Shown here in pieces: positions 9,682-38,035 of a stretch of 39,295 bases of DNA. Positions within the stretch are counted from its first letter, which is position 1. Every line of letters starts with the position of its first letter. Below the pieces are notes generated by a model. It saw nothing but the letters and a program-made list of their open reading frames with translations. It was not told the DNA's origin and searched no databases. The position numbers were made by a program, and so were the translations under genes. The DNA is taken from the NCBI GenBank assembly GCA_030017995.1, contig JASEGS010000015.1:1-39295 (forward strand), in the 5' to 3' direction. The stretch is from Thermodesulfovibrionales bacterium. Its GTDB lineage: Bacteria; Nitrospirota; Thermodesulfovibrionia; Thermodesulfovibrionales; Dissulfurispiraceae.

Positions 9682-10986
9682 TCATTTATCCATCTGCCCA
9701 TAAAGCGCATCGAGCGGGCTTTGCGGAGCGTTGGACATATTTCTCAACACATGAGTATAAACCATGGTAGTCTCAAGATTCTTATGTCCAAGAAGACTCT
9801 GAACCTCTCTTATATTAACTCCGGCTTGAAGCAGATGGGTCGCAAAACTGTGGCGGAGAGTATGGACAGAGGCGTGTTTGGGTATGCCGGATTTTCTGAG
9901 CGCAATCTTGAATGGGTCCTGAATTGTTTTATCGCTGATGTGATGACGCGTAACCTTTCCGCTTCTGGGGTCAACTGAAAGTTTGGACGAGGGGAATACA
10001 TACTGCCATCCCCATTCCTTAGCGGCATTCGGATATTTACGGTTTAATGCATCGGGCATGAAAACTTCTCCGAATCCTTTTGCAAGATCCTTTTCGTGTA
10101 TGGATTTCACTACCTCAAGATGTTTGCGCAGTCTTTCTTTGACTGCAAGAGGCAGCACAGTCGAGCGGTCTTTATCGCCTTTACCGCTTCTGATAAATAA
10201 AGTGTCGGCATCGAAATCTATATCTTTTACCCTGAGACGCGCAAGTTCCATCATGCGAAGGCCGGAGCCGTAAATAATCTCTGCCATAAGAAGATTCAGG
10301 CCATGCATGTGGGAAAATATATTGGCTATTTCCTCAACGGACAAAACAACAGGCATCTTCTGCCCGCGTTTTGCCTTGACAGTGGAGCCCATATCTTCGG
10401 TTTCTTTACCCAACACATGGCGAAACAGGAACAATATGGCATTAAAGGCCTGGTTTTGAGTTGAAGCGGAGACTTTCTGTTTTACGGCAAGGTGGCTGAG
10501 AAAATCCCTGAAATCCTGAGAGTTCAGATCAGCGATAGTTTTTCCTGCTGACTGCAGGGAATATGTAATAAAGCGATTGATCCATTGCTTATATGTGCGC
10601 TCGGTGCTGTATGAATAATGAAGCAGTCTTATCATGCGGACAACCTCGTTTATAAGTGAAGGAAGGTCGGCAAAAAATGAGGTTTCGGAAACAGAGTTTT
10701 TTGAGTCCCCTAAATAATGAAAATAATAAAGTCTGACAGCATCATCAGCCTGCCGCAACTGCCAATCGCGGATGCGCTCATCTGACCGCAAAATATCGAG
10801 AAATTCGATGATTGCAGACTTCTGATAGGAAGAAGGATCGATTTTTTTGTCATGGGCAAAGGCTATGTATCTATTGACCCAGTACGCAAAAAACTGCGTA
10901 TTCTTCTGAGGCACAAGGTCTTTTTGAATAAGAAACTTTTGAAACTCAGGGAGTATATCCTGAGGCTTCTTGGCCAAATTTTCCAT
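9682..10986 (-). CDS. intI: Integron integrase (tyrosine recombinase) with extra N-terminal domain
   Basis: The C-terminal part has the tyrosine-recombinase residues R244 (SGLR), H375-x-x-R378 (HTLRH), H401 (LLGH) and the nucleophile Y410. Residues about 310-356 contain the extra patch that separates integron integrases from XerC/D: PDALNRKYP..., W, FPS...DPRSG, RHHI.D.T.Q. The C-terminus SPLDALYG also matches IntI. It recombines attI with attC and excises or inserts cassettes. At 434 residues it is about 100 longer than plasmid IntI proteins. The extra N-terminus (residues about 10-95) looks like a second SAM-like core-binding domain ahead of the usual one (about 115-195). The strand is opposite to the cassettes, as expected. 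Confidence 0.95.
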   Translation of the reverse strand: MENLAKKPQDILPEFQKFLIQKDLVPQKNTQFFAYWVNRYIAFAHDKKIDPSSYQKSAIIEFLDILRSDERIRDWQLRQADDAVRLYYFHYLGDSKNSVSETSFFADLPSLINEVVRMIRLLHYSYSTERTYKQWINRFITYSLQSAGKTIADLNSQDFRDFLSHLAVKQKVSASTQNQAFNAILFLFRHVLGKETEDMGSTVKAKRGQKMPVVLSVEEIANIFSHMHGLNLLMAEIIYGSGLRMMELARLRVKDIDFDADTLFIRSGKGDKDRSTVLPLAVKERLRKHLEVVKSIHEKDLAKGFGEVFMPDALNRKYPNAAKEWGWQYVFPSSKLSVDPRSGKVTRHHISDKTIQDPFKIALRKSGIPKHASVHTLRHSFATHLLQAGVNIREVQSLLGHKNLETTMVYTHVLRNMSNAPQSPLDALYGQMDK

Positions 10987-11702: not shown

Positions 11703-11731
11703 TGATATGAAACAATGAAATGTGCTATAAT
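11703..11731 (+). promoter_or_regulatory. Candidate cassette-borne promoter for the methyltransferase
   Basis: A perfect TATAAT at 11726-11731 has a weak -35 match (TGATAT, 11703-11708) 17 bases upstream. It lies directly after attC and 15 bases before the preferred ATG at 11747, which favours that start over the ATG at 11720. Confidence 0.5.
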
Positions 11732-11746
11732 TTGGCGAGGATTAAA

Positions 11747-13174
11747 ATGCAAACCATAGCACAGTCATCTTTTTATCCGATTTCATTAGATGAGATAAAG
11801 GCGAAAGTTGCCAAAAAAAATGGCAGACGTAATGGCATCTCCAATGGCAAGATACATCAAGTAAATCTGTTCTATAATCAACCACTTGATAATGTCAAAG
11901 AAATAATAAATGAATTCGGAGAAAAAATTATTAGAGTGGATGGAGAAATACCTATTGATTTGCCAGTTAAGGATAAGGATAGATTTTTATTCATAAGTTA
12001 TGACCAGAGTATTCTTACTCATGGTTTACATAAATATCCCGCAAAATTTTTTCCTGAATTACCCCGTTGGCTTATTAAACGATATTCCAAAGAAAGCGAT
12101 ATAATTCTTGACCCATTCTCTGGCAGTGGCACAACAAATATCGAAGCTCTTTTGTCAGGAAGACATTCTATCGGCATTGATGTTGACCCATTCTCACGCT
12201 ATCTCTCTAAAGTGAAGATAACACCCTTGGACGAAAAGGAATTGCAATCTGCTCAAAAATATCTTTTAAGATTCACACTGAACTATAAACCGTCAAAAGT
12301 TTCCGCGAGAGACATACCTGTCTTCCCTTATAGAGACAATTGGTTTAATAAAGAAATTATTCTTGAATTGGCGTATCTGAAAAAAATTATAGAGGCTCTT
12401 GATACGTCAGAAGATATAAAAGACTTCTTTAGGATTTGTTTTTCTTCCATAATTCGTTCTATATCTAATGCTGATGACAATTGTACAAGAACAGTGATAC
12501 GGAAGAAATTAAATAAAAAAGTTTATCCTGCAGATGCTCTAAAAAGATTTGCAGAAGTTATATTAGTTAATGTCCCAAAAATGATAGAATTTTCTCAAAA
12601 CTGCCCAATAGATGTAAGGGTAAGTTTTCCTGATACGATGGATGCAAGGAATATTAACTACAAAGATTACTTTGACTTAGCAGTCACCTCTCCCCCTTAT
12701 GCCAATGCAGTAGATTATCCGAGAACACATCAACTTGAAAGCTACTGGCTGGGATTGACCAGAGGCTCATTAACTCCTTTAAAGAAAAAGCATGTAGGGA
12801 CAGAAAGTGTTTCATCAAACGAATATAAGCAATTACATAAAATTGGAGTCAAAGAAGCAGATATGACACTCTCAAAAATTTTCAGGAAGGATCCGAGACG
12901 GTCATATATAGCTTTCAAATATTTGGATGATATGAGGTTGAATTTATTAGAAGTGCATAAGGCTTTAAAGAAAGATGGAAAATATGCAGTTGTTGTTGGC
13001 AATAATAAAATCCGAGGCGAATTATTTGAAAACTGGAAATACATAATTGAGTTAGCCAAGAACATCGGCTTTAAAGTTGAAAATTATTTTGCCTCAGAAA
13101 TTATAAAACATTTTATAAAAGTGCCGAGAGAGGAACGTATAAATACTGACTGGATTATCGTTTTACAAAAATAA
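11747..13174 (+). CDS. Site-specific DNA methyltransferase (N4-cytosine/N6-adenine type)
   Basis: This protein of about 475 residues has the AdoMet-binding motif I DPFSGSGTTN (about 122-131) followed by an acidic G-I-D-V-D-P motif II. The catalytic motif IV is TSPPYANAVDY at about 314-324. The sequence HGLHKYPAKFFPELPRWLI just before motif I is typical of N4C methylases related to the PvuII type. The order motif I, then a long region, then motif IV puts the target-recognition segment between them. I prefer the ATG at 11747, which has GAGG upstream and lies downstream of the TATAAT, over the ATG at 11720. The downstream gene starts three bases after the stop and looks like its restriction enzyme. 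The recognition site cannot be read from sequence. Confidence 0.85.
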   Translation: MQTIAQSSFYPISLDEIKAKVAKKNGRRNGISNGKIHQVNLFYNQPLDNVKEIINEFGEKIIRVDGEIPIDLPVKDKDRFLFISYDQSILTHGLHKYPAKFFPELPRWLIKRYSKESDIILDPFSGSGTTNIEALLSGRHSIGIDVDPFSRYLSKVKITPLDEKELQSAQKYLLRFTLNYKPSKVSARDIPVFPYRDNWFNKEIILELAYLKKIIEALDTSEDIKDFFRICFSSIIRSISNADDNCTRTVIRKKLNKKVYPADALKRFAEVILVNVPKMIEFSQNCPIDVRVSFPDTMDARNINYKDYFDLAVTSPPYANAVDYPRTHQLESYWLGLTRGSLTPLKKKHVGTESVSSNEYKQLHKIGVKEADMTLSKIFRKDPRRSYIAFKYLDDMRLNLLEVHKALKKDGKYAVVVGNNKIRGELFENWKYIIELAKNIGFKVENYFASEIIKHFIKVPREERINTDWIIVLQK

Positions 13175-13177
13175 CCT

Positions 13178-13672
13178 ATGCCAAATACAGAAGATACGGG
13201 AAGACAAGCATCAATAGAAGGCTTTGCTAATGAGCATATCGTTGCTGGTCTCCTAATGAAAAAATACCAAAATGTTTCCCTTGTAGATTTACCTCTGTCA
13301 CCTTACGACATAATAATTGTTAGGAAACTTCAAGCTGGCGGTGAAGATATTATCAGGGCACAGGTTAAAACGGCAAGAACAAGCGTAAGCTTTACTGGTG
13401 GTACAAGAGGCGGCGTTGACAGAGAATATAAATCTGGTGTTAAAACTTATATTCAATCTCCAGAAACTTCGGATGTAATCATTGGGTTAAAACCATTGCC
13501 TAACGATGCTTTTGATATGTATTTCATTCCAACTATTCTTATTGAGATTTGGGGGACAAAAAGCAAGGGACTTGGAACAATTGAGCCGCTAAAAAACAAT
13601 TACTATATTCTTGAAAACTGCAAAAATAAAAATTTGATACTTCAAAAGTGCAGAGAATACGGAATTGTTTGA
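13178..13672 (+). CDS. Probable restriction endonuclease, PD-(D/E)xK-like
   Basis: This 164-residue protein follows the methyltransferase by three bases. It has an early helix with E14 (ASIEGFANEHIVAGLL), then SPYDIIIV with D44, and AQVKTA with Q62-x-K64. This E...D...QxK layout fits a PD-(D/E)xK nuclease with glutamine in place of the second acid. Fold and catalytic residues are inferred from the motif; I do not recognise a named type II enzyme. The pairing with a methyltransferase in one cassette supports a type II restriction-modification role. Confidence 0.6.
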   Translation: MPNTEDTGRQASIEGFANEHIVAGLLMKKYQNVSLVDLPLSPYDIIIVRKLQAGGEDIIRAQVKTARTSVSFTGGTRGGVDREYKSGVKTYIQSPETSDVIIGLKPLPNDAFDMYFIPTILIEIWGTKSKGLGTIEPLKNNYYILENCKNKNLILQKCREYGIV

Positions 13673-30967: not shown

Positions 30968-31603
30968 TTAGACCCTTCTTTTATCATGCCCGTAGATATA
31001 TTTATGCAACTGCATATTAAGCCGCACAGAAAGCTTATCCTCTATTATCCATTTTGAGAGGCTTTCTGAAGAAAGCATTCCAAAGGCAGGCGAAAGAAGA
31101 ATTTTACATTTCTCAGCTAATCCATAATCCTTTATAAACTCCACTACCCACTCGTAATCTTCCCTGTCCATAACAACAAATTTAACCTCATCGTGAGGCT
31201 TTAGATGTTTCAGATTCATTAAATCCATCTCTTCAAACATCCCGCTTTTAGGGGTTTTGATATCCATTATAATAATGACTCTTTTATCCACATCCTTTAT
31301 GCTTACACTGCCATTTGTTTCGAGCAGGACAGTGAAACCACTGTCAAATAACGCTGTCATCAGATGGAGCACATCTTTTTGCAGCAATGGTTCACCACCG
31401 GTGATCTCCACGAGTTTTATCCCGTGCTCTCTGACCTTCTCTACAATCTCATTTTCTGACATTTCGATGCCTTCATCATAGGCATATGTTGTATCGCAAT
31501 ATGCACATCTAAGGTTACAGCCTGTCAGTCTTACGAAGACACATGGAAGACCGGCATATGTTGACTCGCCCTGAATGCTCGTAAAGATTTCACAAACTCT
31601 CAT
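30968..31603 (-). CDS. queE: 7-carboxy-7-deazaguanine synthase
   Basis: The 211-residue radical SAM enzyme forms the deazaguanine ring on the queuosine path. It starts MRVCEIFTSIQGES, with the cluster cysteines C29-x3-C33-x2-C36 (GCNLRCAYCDTTYAY) and VEITGGEPLLQ for SAM binding. The other queuosine genes (queC, queD, queF) are not in the window. It overlaps the DUF457 gene by 14 bases, so the two are co-transcribed. Confidence 0.96.
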   Translation of the reverse strand: MRVCEIFTSIQGESTYAGLPCVFVRLTGCNLRCAYCDTTYAYDEGIEMSENEIVEKVREHGIKLVEITGGEPLLQKDVLHLMTALFDSGFTVLLETNGSVSIKDVDKRVIIIMDIKTPKSGMFEEMDLMNLKHLKPHDEVKFVVMDREDYEWVVEFIKDYGLAEKCKILLSPAFGMLSSESLSKWIIEDKLSVRLNMQLHKYIYGHDKRRV

Positions 31604-32462
31604 AGATGCTCACAAACTGTGCAAAAAACCTCTCCCCTGCCATAAAAGAGCATGACAACTCTTTCCATGTAACTATCGTCTTATTACCTTCCGGTTTTAC
31701 TTCTGCATACGGATATTTTGCAAAGTAGAGAAAATTTTGAACTACCCTGTCTTTCTTTGACTCCTGTATTGCAGTGTTATCACTGTCGAGTCTGTATTTA
31801 TCATGAACACAAATCTTTTTAGTGAACATATCTGCAAAACCTGCATTGATCTCATCCCCTGACTTTATGATGAACCACCATCTCAGAAAATCATTGGGAA
31901 GGGGATAAACCTTATAAATATTGGCATCCATTTTCGTCTTCAAAAATTGCATTGTCTGCTTCTGTAAATATGACCTACCGAAAACATAACCGGCAAATAA
32001 TATTACTGCGCAAATGGCAATTATTGTTGCCCTCTTTCTGTTCGCTTTTCCAGCAATAATACAGAGCAACAAGCCAATGGTTATATAAGGGTCGATTATA
32101 AAAGTGAGGTCAAGTGAATACTGATTCCAGTCAAGTGGAGACAGTATCCTCGTGCCGTATTGGTTTGTTAAATCCATCAACAGATGTATGCCATAGGCAA
32201 GGAAGGAAATGGAATAATAATAGAAAAACCCGCCCTTCTTTCTAAAAATAAACGCTACCATGGCTGGGAATAATGCGAGGGCAAGGATTCCGTGTGTAAT
32301 GCCTCTATGGTATCTTAAGAAAACATCAGCACCCCATAGTCTGGTTATATAATCGAAGTCAGGAGCAATAGCCGAAAGAATGATTACAAATAACGCAGCC
32401 TTTCTTTTGAAGCCAAGCTGATGGATTACTGCACCTGACAATGCGTGGGTAATCGGATCCAT
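31590..32462 (-). CDS. DUF457 (YbcI/YdjM-type) membrane protein, putative metal-dependent hydrolase
   Basis: The 290-residue protein has several membrane spans in its first 170 residues. The histidine and aspartate motifs of the DUF457/YbcI group are clear: MDPITHALSGAVI, APDFDYITRLWG, RYHRGITHGI and HLLMDLTNQYG. These suggest a metal site at the membrane. The C-terminal 120 residues are soluble. Relatives are annotated as LexA-regulated membrane-bound metal-dependent hydrolases; the real substrate is unknown. Confidence 0.85.
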   Translation of the reverse strand: MDPITHALSGAVIHQLGFKRKAALFVIILSAIAPDFDYITRLWGADVFLRYHRGITHGILALALFPAMVAFIFRKKGGFFYYYSISFLAYGIHLLMDLTNQYGTRILSPLDWNQYSLDLTFIIDPYITIGLLLCIIAGKANRKRATIIAICAVILFAGYVFGRSYLQKQTMQFLKTKMDANIYKVYPLPNDFLRWWFIIKSGDEINAGFADMFTKKICVHDKYRLDSDNTAIQESKKDRVVQNFLYFAKYPYAEVKPEGNKTIVTWKELSCSFMAGERFFAQFVSIYESL

Positions 32463-32516: not shown

Positions 32517-33401
32517 ATGGATATACATCAGTTAAAGGTATTCGCATCTGTATTTAAGAACAGGAGCTTCTCCAATGCATCGGAAGATATACATCTCACA
32601 CAGCCTACGATCAGCGACCACGTAAAATCATTGGAAGAAGAACTTGATTGCAAGCTTTTTGACAGATTGGGTAGGACGATCATTCCCACCAAAGAAGCAG
32701 AGGCGCTTTATGTCCATGCAACAGAAATCATAGAAAAGATCGGCAATATTAAAGATGCTATCGGCCGCTTTAAAAAAGAGATTTCAGGAGAACTGATCAT
32801 AGGCGCAAGCACCATTCCTGGGACATATCTCATGCCGTCAATAATGGCTGGATTTCGGAAAAAATATCAGGCGATTTCATTTCAAATTCTTATAGCAGAC
32901 TCAAAAGAGATCATTGAAAAGATCGCAAAGCATAATCTCCTCATCGGAATAGTAGGCGCAAAGCTTACAAACAGTCAGGTAAATTATATCCCGCTCATGG
33001 AAGATGAGCTGATTGCTGTATCTTCTCTCTCATTGATAGATAAAGACAAGATGCCGTTAAAAGACCTGGTTAAATATCCTATGGTTTTAAGGGAGGAAGG
33101 CTCAGGAACCCGCAGGGAAACAGAAAAGATACTGGAAGGCAAAGGGATTGCACTCGAAAATATAAAGATTGCAGGCATCTTTGGCTCCACGGACGCGATA
33201 AAACAGGCTGTAAAGGCAGGCATGGGCACGGCGATACTATCAAGGCATTCAGTGAAAGATGAACTCACGCATAGGATATTCAAAAAAATAAAAATCACAG
33301 ATATTCATATGAAAAGAAAGTTCTATATTATTACCCACAAAAAAAGAACCCTTCCCGCCGTATACAACCTGCTTTTGGAATATATAAAAAAGAAACGGTA
33401 A
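32517..33401 (+). CDS. LysR-type transcriptional regulator
   Basis: The 294-residue protein has an N-terminal winged helix (MDIHQLKVFASVFKNRSFSNAS...LTQPTISDHVKSLEEELDCKLFDRLGR) and a periplasmic-binding-like effector domain from about residue 90. It is most like CysB/CbbR/CysL-type LTTRs. It reads toward the rhodanese/ArsS gene cluster that begins 184 bases downstream and is a candidate regulator of it. The divergent DUF457 gene is 54 bases away. Confidence 0.92.
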   Translation: MDIHQLKVFASVFKNRSFSNASEDIHLTQPTISDHVKSLEEELDCKLFDRLGRTIIPTKEAEALYVHATEIIEKIGNIKDAIGRFKKEISGELIIGASTIPGTYLMPSIMAGFRKKYQAISFQILIADSKEIIEKIAKHNLLIGIVGAKLTNSQVNYIPLMEDELIAVSSLSLIDKDKMPLKDLVKYPMVLREEGSGTRRETEKILEGKGIALENIKIAGIFGSTDAIKQAVKAGMGTAILSRHSVKDELTHRIFKKIKITDIHMKRKFYIITHKKRTLPAVYNLLLEYIKKKR

Positions 33402-33437
33402 GGATAAGTCTCCTCCGTTCAGGAGCTTCAGAAACCC
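33396..33437. repeat. Nested inverted repeat after the LysR gene
   Basis: CGGTAAG (33396-33402) pairs with CTTACCG (33431-33437), enclosing a CTCCT/AGGAG hairpin (33410-33425). The outer left arm contains the LysR stop codon. It could end transcription of the regulator, although no T-run follows. The remainder up to 33585 is AT-rich and probably holds the promoter of the rhodanese gene. Confidence 0.45.
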
Positions 33438-33585
33438 ATTCTTACCGCTTCTTTGAAATATAGCTTTTCCCTATCGTTTTATTTCGGTTCATAGCAATTA
33501 ACTATTGGAAATCCATATAGGATATAAGATATGCTTTAAGAAACTGTAGGTATTGCTTATAAAAATAAAACCATCGGGGGTTGAC

Positions 33586-34002
33586 ATGAGAAAATATCTT
33601 GTTTTGGCAATGGCTTTTGTTTTCGTATTAACTACTTCAGCTTTTGCTGCAAATATGGTGAAGGCAGATGAGTTTAAGAAGTGGCTTGAATCAGGGAAAA
33701 AGATGATTATCGTTGACATTCAGCCAAAGGATGAGTTCGAGAAACACCATTTCAAAGACTCCATAGAGACTAATGCCTATCCAGCAAAGACGGATGAAGA
33801 AAAAAAGAGGCTTGATAAGACAATTCCTATAATACAGGCATCAAAAGATGATGTTGTAATCATATGCCCAAGAGGCGGAAGCGGCGCAAGCAATACCTAT
33901 GACTATCTCAAATCAAAGGATGTTCCTGAAAATAGGTTATATATCCTTGAAGGTGGGATAGCAGGCTGGCCTTATAAAGAGATGCTGATAAAGAGAAGAT
34001 GA
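33586..34002 (+). CDS. Secreted rhodanese-like protein
   Basis: The 138-residue protein has a signal peptide (MRKYLVLAMAFVFVLTTSAFA) and a rhodanese domain: FKKWLESGKKMIIVDIQPKDEF, then the catalytic loop ICPRGGSGA with C94, then YILEGGIAGW. Rhodaneses carry persulfide sulfur or, with altered loops, other oxyanions. The loop CPRGGSG is close to the usual CxxGxRS. I chose the ATG at 33586 (GGGGG upstream), since the upstream extension would spoil the signal peptide. The stop overlaps the next start (ATGA). Confidence 0.85.
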   Translation: MRKYLVLAMAFVFVLTTSAFAANMVKADEFKKWLESGKKMIIVDIQPKDEFEKHHFKDSIETNAYPAKTDEEKKRLDKTIPIIQASKDDVVIICPRGGSGASNTYDYLKSKDVPENRLYILEGGIAGWPYKEMLIKRR

Positions 34003-34721
34003 CAGAAGCCAGAAGACAGAAGTCAGAAAGCAGAAGCCAGAAAAATATATCAGTCGTAATTCCTGCTTTAAACGAAGAGAATAATATCAGGGCTTGCATA
34101 GAGTCTGCTAAAAGGCTGAATCCTGTTGAAATTATCGTCGTTGACGGCGGAAGCACTGACAGGACAAAAGAAGTTGCAAAGGCTGCCGGTGCACAAGTGG
34201 TCGATTCTCCAAAAGGCAGGGGCGTCCAGATGAACATGGGCGCCTCTCATGCAAATGGAGATTTGCTCCTCTTCCTGCACGCCGATTCACGATTTCATGA
34301 ATCTCTCATGCCATGGCAAATATTCACACAAGAGTTTCTGCAGGATTACAGCGGGGGATTTTTCAAACTCGCCTTTGACGATAATTCTATCTCCACACGC
34401 CTTGTAGAGCTATTCGCCAACTTTCGCGCACGGTTTTTCTCATTACCTTATGGAGATCAGGCGGTTTTTATAAGGAGAGATATTTTTCAGAAGCTGGGCG
34501 GATTCAGGGAATATCCATTCCTTGAAGATATTGATATGTCGATAAGAATCAGGAAATTTGGAAGGCTTAAATATATCCCCCTGCCTGTTACAGCCTCCTC
34601 AAGAAGAATACAAAAGGGGATTCCGTTGTCTCCGGTTGCAGTGAGCATTAGAAATGTAGTCATTGCATTATTGTTTATGGCTGGAATAAGTCCTTTTGCT
34701 CTTATGAAATTTTATAGATAG
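33999..34721 (+). CDS. Family 2 glycosyltransferase (TIGR04283 type)
   Basis: The 240-residue GT-A enzyme has ISVVIPALNEENNI, EIIVVDGGSTDRT with the nucleotide-sugar aspartate, LLFLHADSRF with the DxD-like site, GDQAVFIRRDIF, FLEDIDMSIR, and a C-terminal hydrophobic helix (about 222-238). TIGR04283 proteins occur beside ArsS and DUF2064 (TIGR04282) genes. The first 15 residues (MTEARRQKSESRSQK) are translated from a short CAGAAG-type repeat and look like a non-conserved extension. It abuts arsS (TAG then ATG). Confidence 0.9.
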   Translation: MTEARRQKSESRSQKNISVVIPALNEENNIRACIESAKRLNPVEIIVVDGGSTDRTKEVAKAAGAQVVDSPKGRGVQMNMGASHANGDLLLFLHADSRFHESLMPWQIFTQEFLQDYSGGFFKLAFDDNSISTRLVELFANFRARFFSLPYGDQAVFIRRDIFQKLGGFREYPFLEDIDMSIRIRKFGRLKYIPLPVTASSRRIQKGIPLSPVAVSIRNVVIALLFMAGISPFALMKFYR

Positions 34722-35693
34722 ATGGAAACACGCCGATTCTGTATGAGCCTGCCGGTCAGCGCGGAGCAGTCTTTCAACGACGGTTTAAAAAGCCTTGGCA
34801 AAGGGCTTAAAAAAGACGTTATCAGTATTATTCAGGTTAATATCGGAAATCTGTGCAACCAATCATGCATTCACTGTCATGTGAGCGCCTCACCTGACAG
34901 CGCCGATATAATGGCATGGGGCACTATGGAAGAAATAATCGCCGTGCTGAAAGGCAGGGCTGGACTGTCTCTTGACATAACCGGAGGCGCACCTGAGCTT
35001 CATCCGAATATAGAGGACTTTATATCAAAGTGTTCATTTTATGTAAATGCCATATCTTTTAGAAGCAATCTTACCGCCCTATTGCTTAAGGAACCCATGA
35101 TAAAAACGTTAAAAGATTATAAAGTTGAACTTATCTGTTCTCTGCCTGATACATTCAGAGAAAAGACAAATTGCCAGAGAGGCAAAGGGGTTTTTGAAAA
35201 ATCAATTCAAACATTAAAGGTCCTAAATGATATAGGTTACGGATATGAGATTCCGCTTCACCTTGTTCATAATCCATCAGAATTTATGCTTCCTGAATTG
35301 CAATGCTTGGCCGAGAAACGATATAGAAGTTATCTCTCAAAGGAATACGGGATTTTTTTCCACAAGCTGTTTATCCTTAACAACATGCCTATCGGCAGAT
35401 TCATGAAAGTGCTCGAGAGTCATAACAATTACAAACAGTATATGAATACCCTTTCTTCAAACTTTAATCCTGCAACTCTTGATGGACTCATGTGCCGGTA
35501 TATTTTAAATATCGGATGGGATGGGAAAATCTATGACTGCGACTTTAACAATGCATTGAATATGCCATTACAAGGCTCGCTAAAGGAACTTAATATAGAT
35601 ACACTTACAGGCAATGACATTTTAGTTGGAGAACACTGTTACGGCTGCACTGCATTAAAGGGGTCTGGGTGCTTTGGAAATATCGTTAGATAA
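34722..35693 (+). CDS. arsS: ArsS-type radical SAM protein (arsenosugar biosynthesis family)
   Basis: The 323-residue protein has the radical SAM cysteines C45-x3-C49-x2-C52 in QVNIGNLCNQSCIHCHVSAS, SLDITGGAPELHPN, and a DUF3641-type C-terminus with more cysteines (LMCRYILNIGWDGKIYDCDFN and GEHCYGCTALKGSGCFGN). This matches the ArsS family, which makes the dimethylarsinoyl-ribose part of arsenosugars from a methylated arsenical and SAM. No arsM methyltransferase is in the window, so the substrate here is not certain. Confidence 0.88.
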   Translation: METRRFCMSLPVSAEQSFNDGLKSLGKGLKKDVISIIQVNIGNLCNQSCIHCHVSASPDSADIMAWGTMEEIIAVLKGRAGLSLDITGGAPELHPNIEDFISKCSFYVNAISFRSNLTALLLKEPMIKTLKDYKVELICSLPDTFREKTNCQRGKGVFEKSIQTLKVLNDIGYGYEIPLHLVHNPSEFMLPELQCLAEKRYRSYLSKEYGIFFHKLFILNNMPIGRFMKVLESHNNYKQYMNTLSSNFNPATLDGLMCRYILNIGWDGKIYDCDFNNALNMPLQGSLKELNIDTLTGNDILVGEHCYGCTALKGSGCFGNIVR

Positions 35694-37404
35694 GTCAGGG
35701 GTCGTGAGTCAAGAGTCAATAAAAACAGGGGACTTTTTAACAAACTGCAATTCCTGCGGGAAATGCAAAAAAGCGTGTCCATTTTTAGAAAAATGCGGCA
35801 CGCCTGACATGATTATCTCTAAAGGTTCTGAAGATGTATTTCTATGCACAAATTGCAGGGCTTGCAATATCTTATGTCCACTAAGGCTTTTGCCGTCTGA
35901 TGCGATACTCAGCACAAGACACAGGCTGATAAAAGAAAATAGGCTCTCCGAAAATATTAAAGACTCAGTAAAATCAGCAAATGCCTTTGCAAGGAAAGGG
36001 CACAGATTCCCGTTTTCATATTATGAGAGGGCAGAAATTATCTTTTGGCCGGGATGCGCCCTATCCGGCACGGAACCAGATATCATAAAAAAAACTATCA
36101 GGCTTTTAAACAAACACCTGAACTGCAAAGTGGGTATCGTGCTTGACTGCTGCTTTGACAGCTCATTCCAGATAGGAGATATTGACGAGGTTCAAAAGGC
36201 TGCGGAAAGGATTAGGGAAAGACTCAGAAAACACGGAATCAGGCGCGTGATAACAGGGTGCGTAAACTGCAAAAAGATATTTTCCCTTTATTTGCCGGAG
36301 ATCAGTGCAGAACATATCATGGAGGTGCTGTCTGATACCCATTCACACATTTACCGATTCACCCATTCACAGGTTTACCTTCACCATCCATGCCCGTCTT
36401 ACATGTTTGAAGGCATACAGGAGAAAGCAAGAAATATCCTTAAGAAAAACGCCTCTGATATTATAGAGCCTCCTTATCCATCATGCTGCGGACTCGGCGG
36501 AGGGCTGCATGATACATCAAAGGAATTATCCGACACATTTGCCGGCGCTGTGATTACAGATGCAGGCAACAGGGATATTATCACATACTGCATGGGCTGT
36601 AAGAATAAATTCTTAAAAAATGGCAAAAGGACATCCCATATACTTGAATTTATGAACGGGATAAAACCCATTGAAGAGGCAATCCCCTCACAAAGGAAAT
36701 GGCTAAACAGATTCCTCCTCGCAATGCACTTCAGGCTCAAAGGCAAGTCTTTTATCAGTGGGCTTATCCTCATAATACTCATCCTCGCTACAACATTTCT
36801 GAGAAAAACAGGGCACATATCCCTTGAGTCAATAATTGAATTTATCGAGGGGCATAGTGTAACAGCGCCGCTTCTATTTATCCTCATCTATGCAATAGGC
36901 CCCAGCCTGTTTATATCAAGCCTTGCGCTCACACTCGGCGCCGGCTTTATCTGGGGACCGTTCATGGGAGTGGTCTTTTCAATCACAGGCGCTACCATCG
37001 GCGCATCGGTTTCTTTTCTGCTCGCAAGGTATATCATTGGCAATGCCATAAAGGAGAGGTTCACCTATACTGTACGGAAACGGCTTGGAGATCAGGTGGC
37101 AAAACACGGCTGGAAGGCAGTTGCCTTTGCAAGATTAATCCCTATTTTCCCATTCCCTGTTTTGAATTATCTCTTCGGTGTCACACCCATTCCATTTATA
37201 CATTACTTGTGGAGCACATTTGTATTTATGCTCCCTGCCTGTATTGCATATGTTGCCTTTGGGAGTTCGATGGGAGAATTGATTATCAGCGGCAATATAA
37301 AGGGCATTATTATCGGCATCGTCATAGCGTCAGCAGCAATGCTTTTGCCATTAGCGTTAAAGCCGAAATTTAAAGAGATATTTCAAAAAAACAATGGCCG
37401 CTAA
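35674..37404 (+). CDS. Hdr/GlpC-like iron-sulfur protein fused to a VTT (TVP38/TMEM64) membrane domain
   Basis: The N-terminal half (to about residue 330) carries two [4Fe-4S] motifs, NCNSCGKCKKACPF and CTNCRACNILCPL. Two CCG-type cysteine domains follow (GCALSGTEPD...DCCFDSSF and HHPCPSYMFE...SCCGLGGGLH...YCMGCK), as in HdrD and GlpC. Residues about 350-570 are a VTT/DedA-like membrane domain with hydrophobic spans, including GAGFIWGPFMGVVFSITGATIGASVSFLLARYI (interior glycines) and ARLIPIFPFPVLNYLFG. The likely start is TTG 35674, nine bases after AAAGGGGT, overlapping arsS by 20 bases; GTG 35704 is possible. VTT proteins are frequent ArsS neighbours, but this fusion is unusual. Confidence 0.88.
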   Translation: MEISLDKSGVVSQESIKTGDFLTNCNSCGKCKKACPFLEKCGTPDMIISKGSEDVFLCTNCRACNILCPLRLLPSDAILSTRHRLIKENRLSENIKDSVKSANAFARKGHRFPFSYYERAEIIFWPGCALSGTEPDIIKKTIRLLNKHLNCKVGIVLDCCFDSSFQIGDIDEVQKAAERIRERLRKHGIRRVITGCVNCKKIFSLYLPEISAEHIMEVLSDTHSHIYRFTHSQVYLHHPCPSYMFEGIQEKARNILKKNASDIIEPPYPSCCGLGGGLHDTSKELSDTFAGAVITDAGNRDIITYCMGCKNKFLKNGKRTSHILEFMNGIKPIEEAIPSQRKWLNRFLLAMHFRLKGKSFISGLILIILILATTFLRKTGHISLESIIEFIEGHSVTAPLLFILIYAIGPSLFISSLALTLGAGFIWGPFMGVVFSITGATIGASVSFLLARYIIGNAIKERFTYTVRKRLGDQVAKHGWKAVAFARLIPIFPFPVLNYLFGVTPIPFIHYLWSTFVFMLPACIAYVAFGSSMGELIISGNIKGIIIGIVIASAAMLLPLALKPKFKEIFQKNNGR

Positions 37405-38035
37405 TCCATCTGCACTGGGCATCATGTTCAGAATACCTGAATACGGCAGGGTCAAGACCCGTCTTGCAAAAGAAGTGGGCAAGGGAGCTGCTCTCAGGGC
37501 TTACATCTCTATGCTCAATACGACATTGTTGAATATTTCTGAACTCAAAAATATAGACATCTATGGTTTCTATAAAGGCAAAGAACCCCTTAACTGGAAT
37601 GATAACATTAGATACCATCCTCAGAGCAGCGGAGACATCGGTGAAAGGATGCTTAATGCCATCCAATGGCTTTTTAAAAAAGGATACTATAAGGTTACAC
37701 TAATTGGCGCAGACTCGCCTGATCTTCCACTCTCCTTTATTACGAGGACGTTTTCAGAACTGGACAACTATGACCTTGTTATAGGCCCCTCTGAGGACGG
37801 TGGGTATTATCTCATCGGCATGAAAAACCCTCAAAAAGTATTATTTAAAAGCATCAGATGGGGCAGTTCCAGCGCATTTAAAGACACTGTCTCCATAGCA
37901 AAAAAAGAAGGAATCAAATATGTTGCGCTTCCGCAATGGTATGACATAGACAGTTTATCTGCTTTGAATAAATGGAGACGAAGACTAAATCTGCCTGACT
38001 TCTGCCCTAAGAGCGCTGTCAACGGCAGCGACTAA
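37394..38035 (+). CDS. DUF2064 glycosyltransferase-like protein (TIGR04282)
   Basis: The 213-residue protein has the GT-A-like DUF2064 motifs: MFRIPEYGRVKTRLAKEVG near the start, LIGADSPDLPLSFI, and GPSEDGGYYLIGMK. TIGR04282 genes co-occur with TIGR04283 and ArsS, consistent with building a glycosyl part of an arsenosugar-like product. The ATG lies inside the end of the Hdr-VTT gene. Its last 51 bases overlap the oppositely oriented histidine-kinase gene. Confidence 0.9.
   Translation: MAANPSALGIMFRIPEYGRVKTRLAKEVGKGAALRAYISMLNTTLLNISELKNIDIYGFYKGKEPLNWNDNIRYHPQSSGDIGERMLNAIQWLFKKGYYKVTLIGADSPDLPLSFITRTFSELDNYDLVIGPSEDGGYYLIGMKNPQKVLFKSIRWGSSSAFKDTVSIAKKEGIKYVALPQWYDIDSLSALNKWRRRLNLPDFCPKSAVNGSD

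Follow-up and report, generated by a model that had tools for sequence, protein, structure and literature searches.

An ArsS radical SAM gene block behind a selenium-type LysR gene in a Thermodesulfovibrionales genome without detectable ArsM

The genes described here lie in a 39,295-nucleotide stretch of contig JASEGS010000015.1 (the window, meaning this whole stretch) from a Thermodesulfovibrionales genome of the phylum Nitrospirota, referred to as G000 (1.70 Mb in 55 contigs, 97% complete); other genomes and loci carry G and L numbers, and most of the genomes are metagenome-assembled. Five genes on the forward strand occupy positions 33586–38035, each overlapping or abutting the next, with a gene for the radical S-adenosylmethionine (SAM) enzyme ArsS in the middle. 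The first is a rhodanese gene (33586–34002; PF00581, 46.9 bits, cut-off 22.2) encoding a protein with a signal-peptide-like N-terminus, MRKYLVLAMAFVFVLTTSAFA, and the active-site loop CPRGGSGA; its start is backed by orthologues in G030 and G005 (75–80% identical) that begin at the same residue, and it falls below membership of the NF041203 rhodanese-related (seleno)protein family (19 against a cut-off of 115). Secondly, a TIGR04283-family GT-A glycosyltransferase gene (33999–34721; 224.7 bits, cut-off 182), annotated as arsenosugar biosynthesis and called GT4283 below, starts within the end of the rhodanese gene and is followed directly by ArsS (34722–35693; TIGR04167, 341.4 bits, cut-off 300; DUF3641, 152 bits). 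The end of ArsS is overlapped by a gene (35674–37404) for a fusion of heterodisulfide reductase (Hdr) HdrC-like and HdrB-like parts with a C-terminal VTT domain (PF02754 CCG, 39.6 bits, cut-off 20.6); this VTT membrane domain is of the DedA/TVP38 type (PF09335, residues 417–531, 36922–37266; 80.3 bits, cut-off 33.9). The last gene (37394–38035) overlaps the end of Hdr-VTT and encodes a TIGR04282/DUF2064 protein with a CofC-like nucleotidyl/glycosyl transferase fold, also annotated as arsenosugar biosynthesis (TIGR04282, 183.1 bits, cut-off 134; PF09837, 105.9 bits, cut-off 25.8).

Upstream on the same strand is a LysR gene (32517–33401; PF03466, PF00126) that meets NF040786, the selenium-metabolism LysR subfamily (LysR_Se), with 300.6 bits against a cut-off of 250. 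The 184-bp gap between it and the rhodanese gene (33402–33585) is presumed to be a promoter/operator region; a promoter scan of this region and a terminator scan gave scores near shuffled-sequence levels and no significant match. An initial annotation of this DNA, made from the sequence alone, had the five genes and the preceding LysR gene in place, and the families now score above curated cut-offs, but it had recorded a plain LysR and missed the selenium type.

ArsS retains 52 of the 52 near-invariant columns of its alignment, including the CX3CX2C radical SAM cluster motif (C45-x3-C49-x2-C52, 34854–34877) that is invariant across the alignment, and a broken or decaying ArsS is therefore rejected. 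The protein is free-standing and of the cysteine (Cys) form, with Cys317 (codon 35670–35672) at the column where 20 of the 54 ArsS rows have an in-frame TGA for selenocysteine (Sec). The HdrC-like part of Hdr-VTT contains two [4Fe-4S] motifs (C25 C28 C31 C35 and C58 C61 C64 C68) and the HdrB-like part two CCG motifs (C128/C159 C160/C196 C199 and C240/C271 C272/C306 C309), and these cysteines are invariant in the Hdr-VTT alignment (A1). Profile matches are to HdrC (7bkb, 5odc), HdrB (8rvv, 5odc) and an iron-sulfur-binding reductase (9ojn), and the match to NF045663 (diclust_near_Sec) is partial, covering residues 58–332 only with a score of 162.7 against a cut-off of 530. Hdr-VTT resembles HdrB/HdrC in its dicluster ferredoxin domain and in having both CCG motifs, but it is a single chain with a C-terminal VTT and no HdrA lies nearby. 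Several DedA/VTT proteins act as lipid flippases or scramblases, fusions of rhodanese with DedA are known, and DedA has been reported to have a probable connection with selenite resistance (PMC10127716).

The presence of ArsS, TIGR04283 and TIGR04282 proteins in one operon, all above curated cut-offs, argues for an arsenosugar-type gene set. ArsS enzymes form a C–As bond by 5'-deoxyadenosyl transfer and have been characterised together with ArsM, and many ArsS and ArsM are selenoproteins. With roughly even confidence, we read the block as a translationally coupled organoarsenical (arsenosugar-type) operon under a selenium-linked regulator, running without ArsM. Its core repeatedly travels with arsenic methylases, since ArsM-ArsS, ArsS-ArsM and radical SAM-ArsM-MbdU fusions occur in the clusters of relatives.

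Several points weigh against this reading. First, no ArsM was found genome-wide in G000, either with NF008823 at 1e-30 or with the ArsM domain of a relative at 1e-3; an ArsM overlooked elsewhere in G000 is rejected on these searches, and the absence that the initial annotation had guessed from the window alone now holds for a 97% complete genome. Secondly, Acr3 is absent from G000 at 1e-30, though 103 of 150 relatives have it, and the ArsB superfamily gives one weak match (75.6 bits), such that the usual arsenic setting is missing. Thirdly, a genome search found no YedF, elsewhere a cluster member, in G000. The arsenosugar label of TIGR04282 and TIGR04283 presumably itself rests on association, and both the substrate and the product of the operon are predictions from its genes; the arsenosugar-like product of the initial annotation agrees with the gene set, and its identity stays putative.

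In the proposed pathway LysR_Se would switch the operon according to selenium status, and a membrane-tethered HdrCB-VTT would use its two [4Fe-4S] and two CCG-bound clusters to pass on electrons of low potential, keeping a thiol or metalloid partner reduced at the membrane. ArsS would form the C–As bond by 5'-deoxyadenosyl transfer, the candidate acceptors in place of an ArsM product being arsenite or an imported methylarsenical, and the TIGR04283 and TIGR04282 proteins would convert the adenosyl-arsenical to a sugar derivative, as their family annotations suggest. The weakest step is the last, in which the exported rhodanese may handle sulfur (or selenium) outside the membrane, for example as thiolated arsenic or polysulfide. 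A precedent is ArsL of arsinothricin biosynthesis (arsQML), a radical SAM enzyme that forms a C–As bond directly on As(III), before ArsM (PMC8552651); ArsL is however a different radical SAM enzyme that transfers a 3-amino-3-carboxypropyl group, and no ArsL was found here. The cyanobacterial arsenosugar pathway of Synechocystis comprises ArsM and ArsS (Xue 2019; Cheng 2021; cited by PMC8552651 and PMC12159101). The window is like it in having an ArsS above cut-off with intact motifs together with TIGR04282 and TIGR04283 proteins, and unlike it in that the genome has no ArsM and the operon includes LysR_Se, an exported rhodanese and Hdr-VTT.

An ordinary arsenosugar pathway could dispense with ArsM because di- or monomethylarsenicals (DMA/MMA) would be imported from neighbours, with selenium control reflecting an ancestral selenoprotein ArsS of which the Cys form is a selenium-sparing isoform. 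This we regard as unlikely. It fits the Sec in 20 relatives where the window ArsS has Cys, and the absence of a detectable ArsM from 19 of the 35 genomes whose ArsS is free-standing, but it leaves unexplained both the recurring partners YedF, rhodanese and Hdr-VTT and the BioB-like radical SAM enzyme that fills the ArsS slot in genomes without ArsS (see below).

ArsS is above cut-off in 50 of the 150 relatives, most of them in two clades. Those of the first score 384–454 bits and mostly have an in-frame TGA, and those of the second score 340–376 bits, mostly within proteins of 660–744 amino acids (aa) in which the added domain is an ArsM-like methyltransferase. The window ArsS clusters with three ArsM-ArsS fusions (support 100/99), and the G005 and G030 ArsS with ArsS-ArsM fusions (100/99); the tree was repeated without L088_3975, an ArsM-like long branch, which the final tree leaves out. 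Loss of an ArsM half is favoured by these trees for the G005 and G030 ArsS (approximately unbiased test, p-AU 0.058 against the fusions as one clade) and is only possible for the window ArsS, because the test does not reject a separate clade of the three ArsM-ArsS fusions (p-AU 0.39). The window order GT4283-ArsS-HdrVTT-DUF2064 matches L053 except for the missing ArsM half; ArsM-ArsS fusions fill the same position in L053, L119 and L121, and ArsS-ArsM fusions occur elsewhere (L042 and others). The ArsM half of L053 resembles AST-type ArsM (NF040538, 372 bits, under the cut-off of 500). A 744-aa open reading frame (ORF) in L054 (2052–4286) links ArsS to an incomplete ArsM and a GT4283 domain, in which a frameshift or rearrangement is possible; gene calls in the compared loci are simple ORF calls.

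The block recurs in G005 and G030 at an identical site, marked by a QueE gene (30968–31603 in the window; TIGR04349, 274 bits, under the cut-off of 300) and a YdjM membrane protein gene (31590–32462; PF04307), both on the reverse strand, followed by LysR_Se. QueE is outside the pathway and YdjM probably has no part in it; both also mark the site in L036, L044 and L089. The order in G005 and G030 is LysR_Se, a small protein, a beta-propeller protein, a split-Soret cytochrome, ArsS, YedF, rhodanese, GT4283, Hdr-VTT and DUF2064, with a TsuA/YeeE-like transporter after LysR_Se in G005 alone. At the same site G022 has LysR_Se, split-Soret cytochrome, YedF, GT4283, ArsS, VTT, a MerA/LpdA-like FAD reductase and DUF2064. 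A scan of the Hdr-VTT alignment against 84,980 species genomes led to 80 named loci. Subfamily 1 of Hdr-VTT (41–60% identity) extends to Thermodesulfobacteria and to lineages of the deltaproteobacteria, where it is once more accompanied by GT4283, DUF2064, rhodanese and radical SAM genes, and the core shared by these groups and Thermodesulfovibrionales often includes YedF and an exported rhodanese; subfamily 2 is at about 30% identity and includes L236, L174 and L176. Chance grouping of the block is rejected on its recurrence across families and phyla, and the neighbourhood survey found it at the same site and in other lineages, not scattered as the initial annotation had allowed.

The ArsS-centred cluster of the initial annotation stands, but the variability of the radical SAM slot had been missed. 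Across the loci this slot contains a free ArsS, an ArsM-ArsS or ArsS-ArsM fusion, or, in genomes without ArsS, a BioB-like enzyme. The BioB-like protein (family A3, 45–69% identical) lies between GT4283 and Hdr-VTT in L116 (G098) and in L233 (G040). It has a CX3CX2C motif and was located at L116:5580–6626, L138:12461–13495, L111:4605–5615, L233:9940–11013 and L237:10348–11340. The family is uncharacterised and is present in 9 of the 150 relatives; its genes sit at or close to the ArsS slot, or else next to LysR_Se, MauE and rhodanese genes near SelD; matches to NCBIfam bioB, PylB and HydE are weak and far under cut-offs, and identification as ArsL, BioB or HydE is rejected. No ArsS was found in the genomes of L111, L112, L116 and L138. 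Mutual exclusion of BioB-like enzyme and ArsS over all relatives is rejected, since 3 of the 9 have both, and it holds only among the Hdr-VTT-linked cases examined. Fusions of 1006–1095 aa, with SPASM-type radical SAM, ArsM-like methyltransferase and MbdU-like metal-binding regions, are encoded at L174:12943–16230 and L176:15991–19011, where they cluster with Hdr-VTT subfamily 2 and rhodanese.

Loci with the core but no adjacent ArsS (L111, L112, L114, L116 and L138), and the TsuA/YeeE-like transporter and split-Soret cytochrome upstream in G005, could indicate a more general system for sulfur/metalloid redox chemistry or the handling of thiosulfate, in which the function resides in rhodanese, YedF and Hdr-VTT and ArsS is incidental. 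We find this highly improbable, in that three of those five loci have the BioB-like enzyme and the glycosyltransferase pair is mostly kept, and ArsS or the BioB-like enzyme is present in 12 of 13 genomes with subfamily-1 Hdr-VTT (p 3e-5).

Within the same order, clade-A ArsS clusters contain a Sec or Cys ArsS, a TIGR04169 peroxidase-like protein, a MerA/LpdA-like reductase with VTT, and the glycosyltransferase pair. In common with the window they have an ArsS, GT4283, DUF2064 and a VTT protein alongside a disulfide-reductase module, and one of them, L089, has the same flanks as the window and also LysR_Se/YedF; however, the window has an Hdr-type iron-sulfur reductase fused to VTT in place of an FAD reductase and separate VTT, and its ArsS is of a different clade (about 40% identity). 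The fusion noted in the initial annotation is real, but its positional match to this pair had escaped it. Because G022/L089 has the MerA/LpdA-like reductase and separate VTT at the same genomic site, none of the mapped loci has a MerA-like gene within 9 kb of subfamily-1 Hdr-VTT, and VTT and MerA-like genes are neighbours in several clade-A loci, we read Hdr-VTT as a stand-in for the pair; the positional swap is plain, and the reaction proposed for Hdr-VTT is putative.

The link to selenium emerges from several loci. The LysR_Se subfamily is tied to selenium and has been reported solely from SelD-containing organisms (Lin et al. 2015, PMC5322559). G000 encodes SelB and a SelD with an in-frame TGA (Sec-type), and therefore very likely decodes Sec, judging from these genes; both lie away from the block, and no sel gene or YedF adjoins it. 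Selenium loci are known with NF040786 LysR_Se, YedF, SelD/SelB and cysteine desulfurase (PMC5322559), and the window block shares LysR_Se with them. Hdr-VTT relatives and YedF occur in such loci, as in L236 (2600–11977), where SelB, a double-cubane reductase, an activase, SelD, YedF, a cysteine desulfurase and Hdr-VTT subfamily 2 lie together in one operon. YedF is within the ArsS/Hdr-VTT-type cluster in G005, G030, G049, G025, G040 and G098, and in G004 (L237) LysR_Se, a MauE-like protein, an exported rhodanese and the BioB-like enzyme are side by side near SelD. Beside YedF in L233 (12551–12883) is a 110-aa fragment matching the SelD C-terminus alone, with a full SelD elsewhere in that genome.

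Among the 150 relatives ArsS co-occurs with ArsM (odds ratio (OR) 5.0, p 1.2e-5, counting fusions; OR 3.4, p 0.004 for free ArsS and unfused ArsM) and with Acr3 (OR 2.8, p 0.015), but not significantly with YedF (OR 0.85), which is rejected as a predictor of ArsS. Of the 27 genomes having both ArsS and YedF, 8 nonetheless have the two at most 4 kb apart, where 0.09 are expected. ArsS or the BioB-like enzyme occurs in 19 of the 20 genomes with Hdr-VTT, against 37 of the 130 others (p 1e-8). All co-occurrence statistics given here leave phylogeny uncorrected, in a set of relatives that are not phylogenetically independent. ArsS presence thus follows arsenic genes and ArsS location follows selenium genes, and the co-occurrence with ArsM and Acr3 speaks for arsenic as far as the whole ArsS family is concerned. 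The suggestion of the initial annotation that a missing arsM and a rhodanese point to other oxyanion chemistry is conjectural; its selenium link is upheld by LysR_Se and the YedF proximity, with selenium as a substrate a conjecture.

The same loci raise the prospect of an organoselenium operon, in which LysR_Se, YedF, rhodanese and an Hdr-VTT of the selenium-operon type would provide reduced selenium, ArsS or the BioB-like enzyme would form a C–Se bond, and the two glycosyltransferases would add a sugar. The LysR score, the YedF-containing clusters, the L236 and G004 arrangements, and a G000 with SelB and SelD but neither ArsM nor Acr3 all speak for it. We nevertheless think it improbable: close versions carry ArsS fused to ArsM, or a radical SAM-ArsM protein within the cluster, ArsS presence does not follow that of YedF across genomes, G000 lacks YedF, and the regulator may reflect Sec/Cys supply alone, because many ArsS and ArsM are selenoproteins.

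Returning to the organoarsenical operon, a tentative and unlikely extension is a selenium-regulated, ArsM-free C–metalloid pathway. The core of exported rhodanese, YedF, two sugar/nucleotide transferases and membrane HdrCB-VTT would be a reusable chassis whose radical SAM slot takes ArsS, ArsM-ArsS or the BioB-like enzyme, and the product here would be either an adenosyl-arsenical that bears no methyl group or its selenium counterpart, a compound class that to our knowledge is undescribed. The retention of an ArsS operon without ArsM, including in G005 (single-contig, 100% complete), makes ArsS action on unmethylated arsenic directly testable, and the repeated siting of ArsS at selenium-type loci raises the concrete question of whether anaerobes connect arsenic with selenium. 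The BioB-like enzyme and the fusion of Hdr with VTT stand out as new targets; the neighbourhood pattern may be partly described in the literature already.

Elsewhere in the window, a tyrosine-recombinase-like protein (9682–10986; RHSFATHLL, HKNLETTMVYTHV) is encoded beside an acpS-like gene, and a DNA-methyltransferase-like ORF with a 164-aa ORF directly after it (11720–13672) looks like a small modification/restriction pair.

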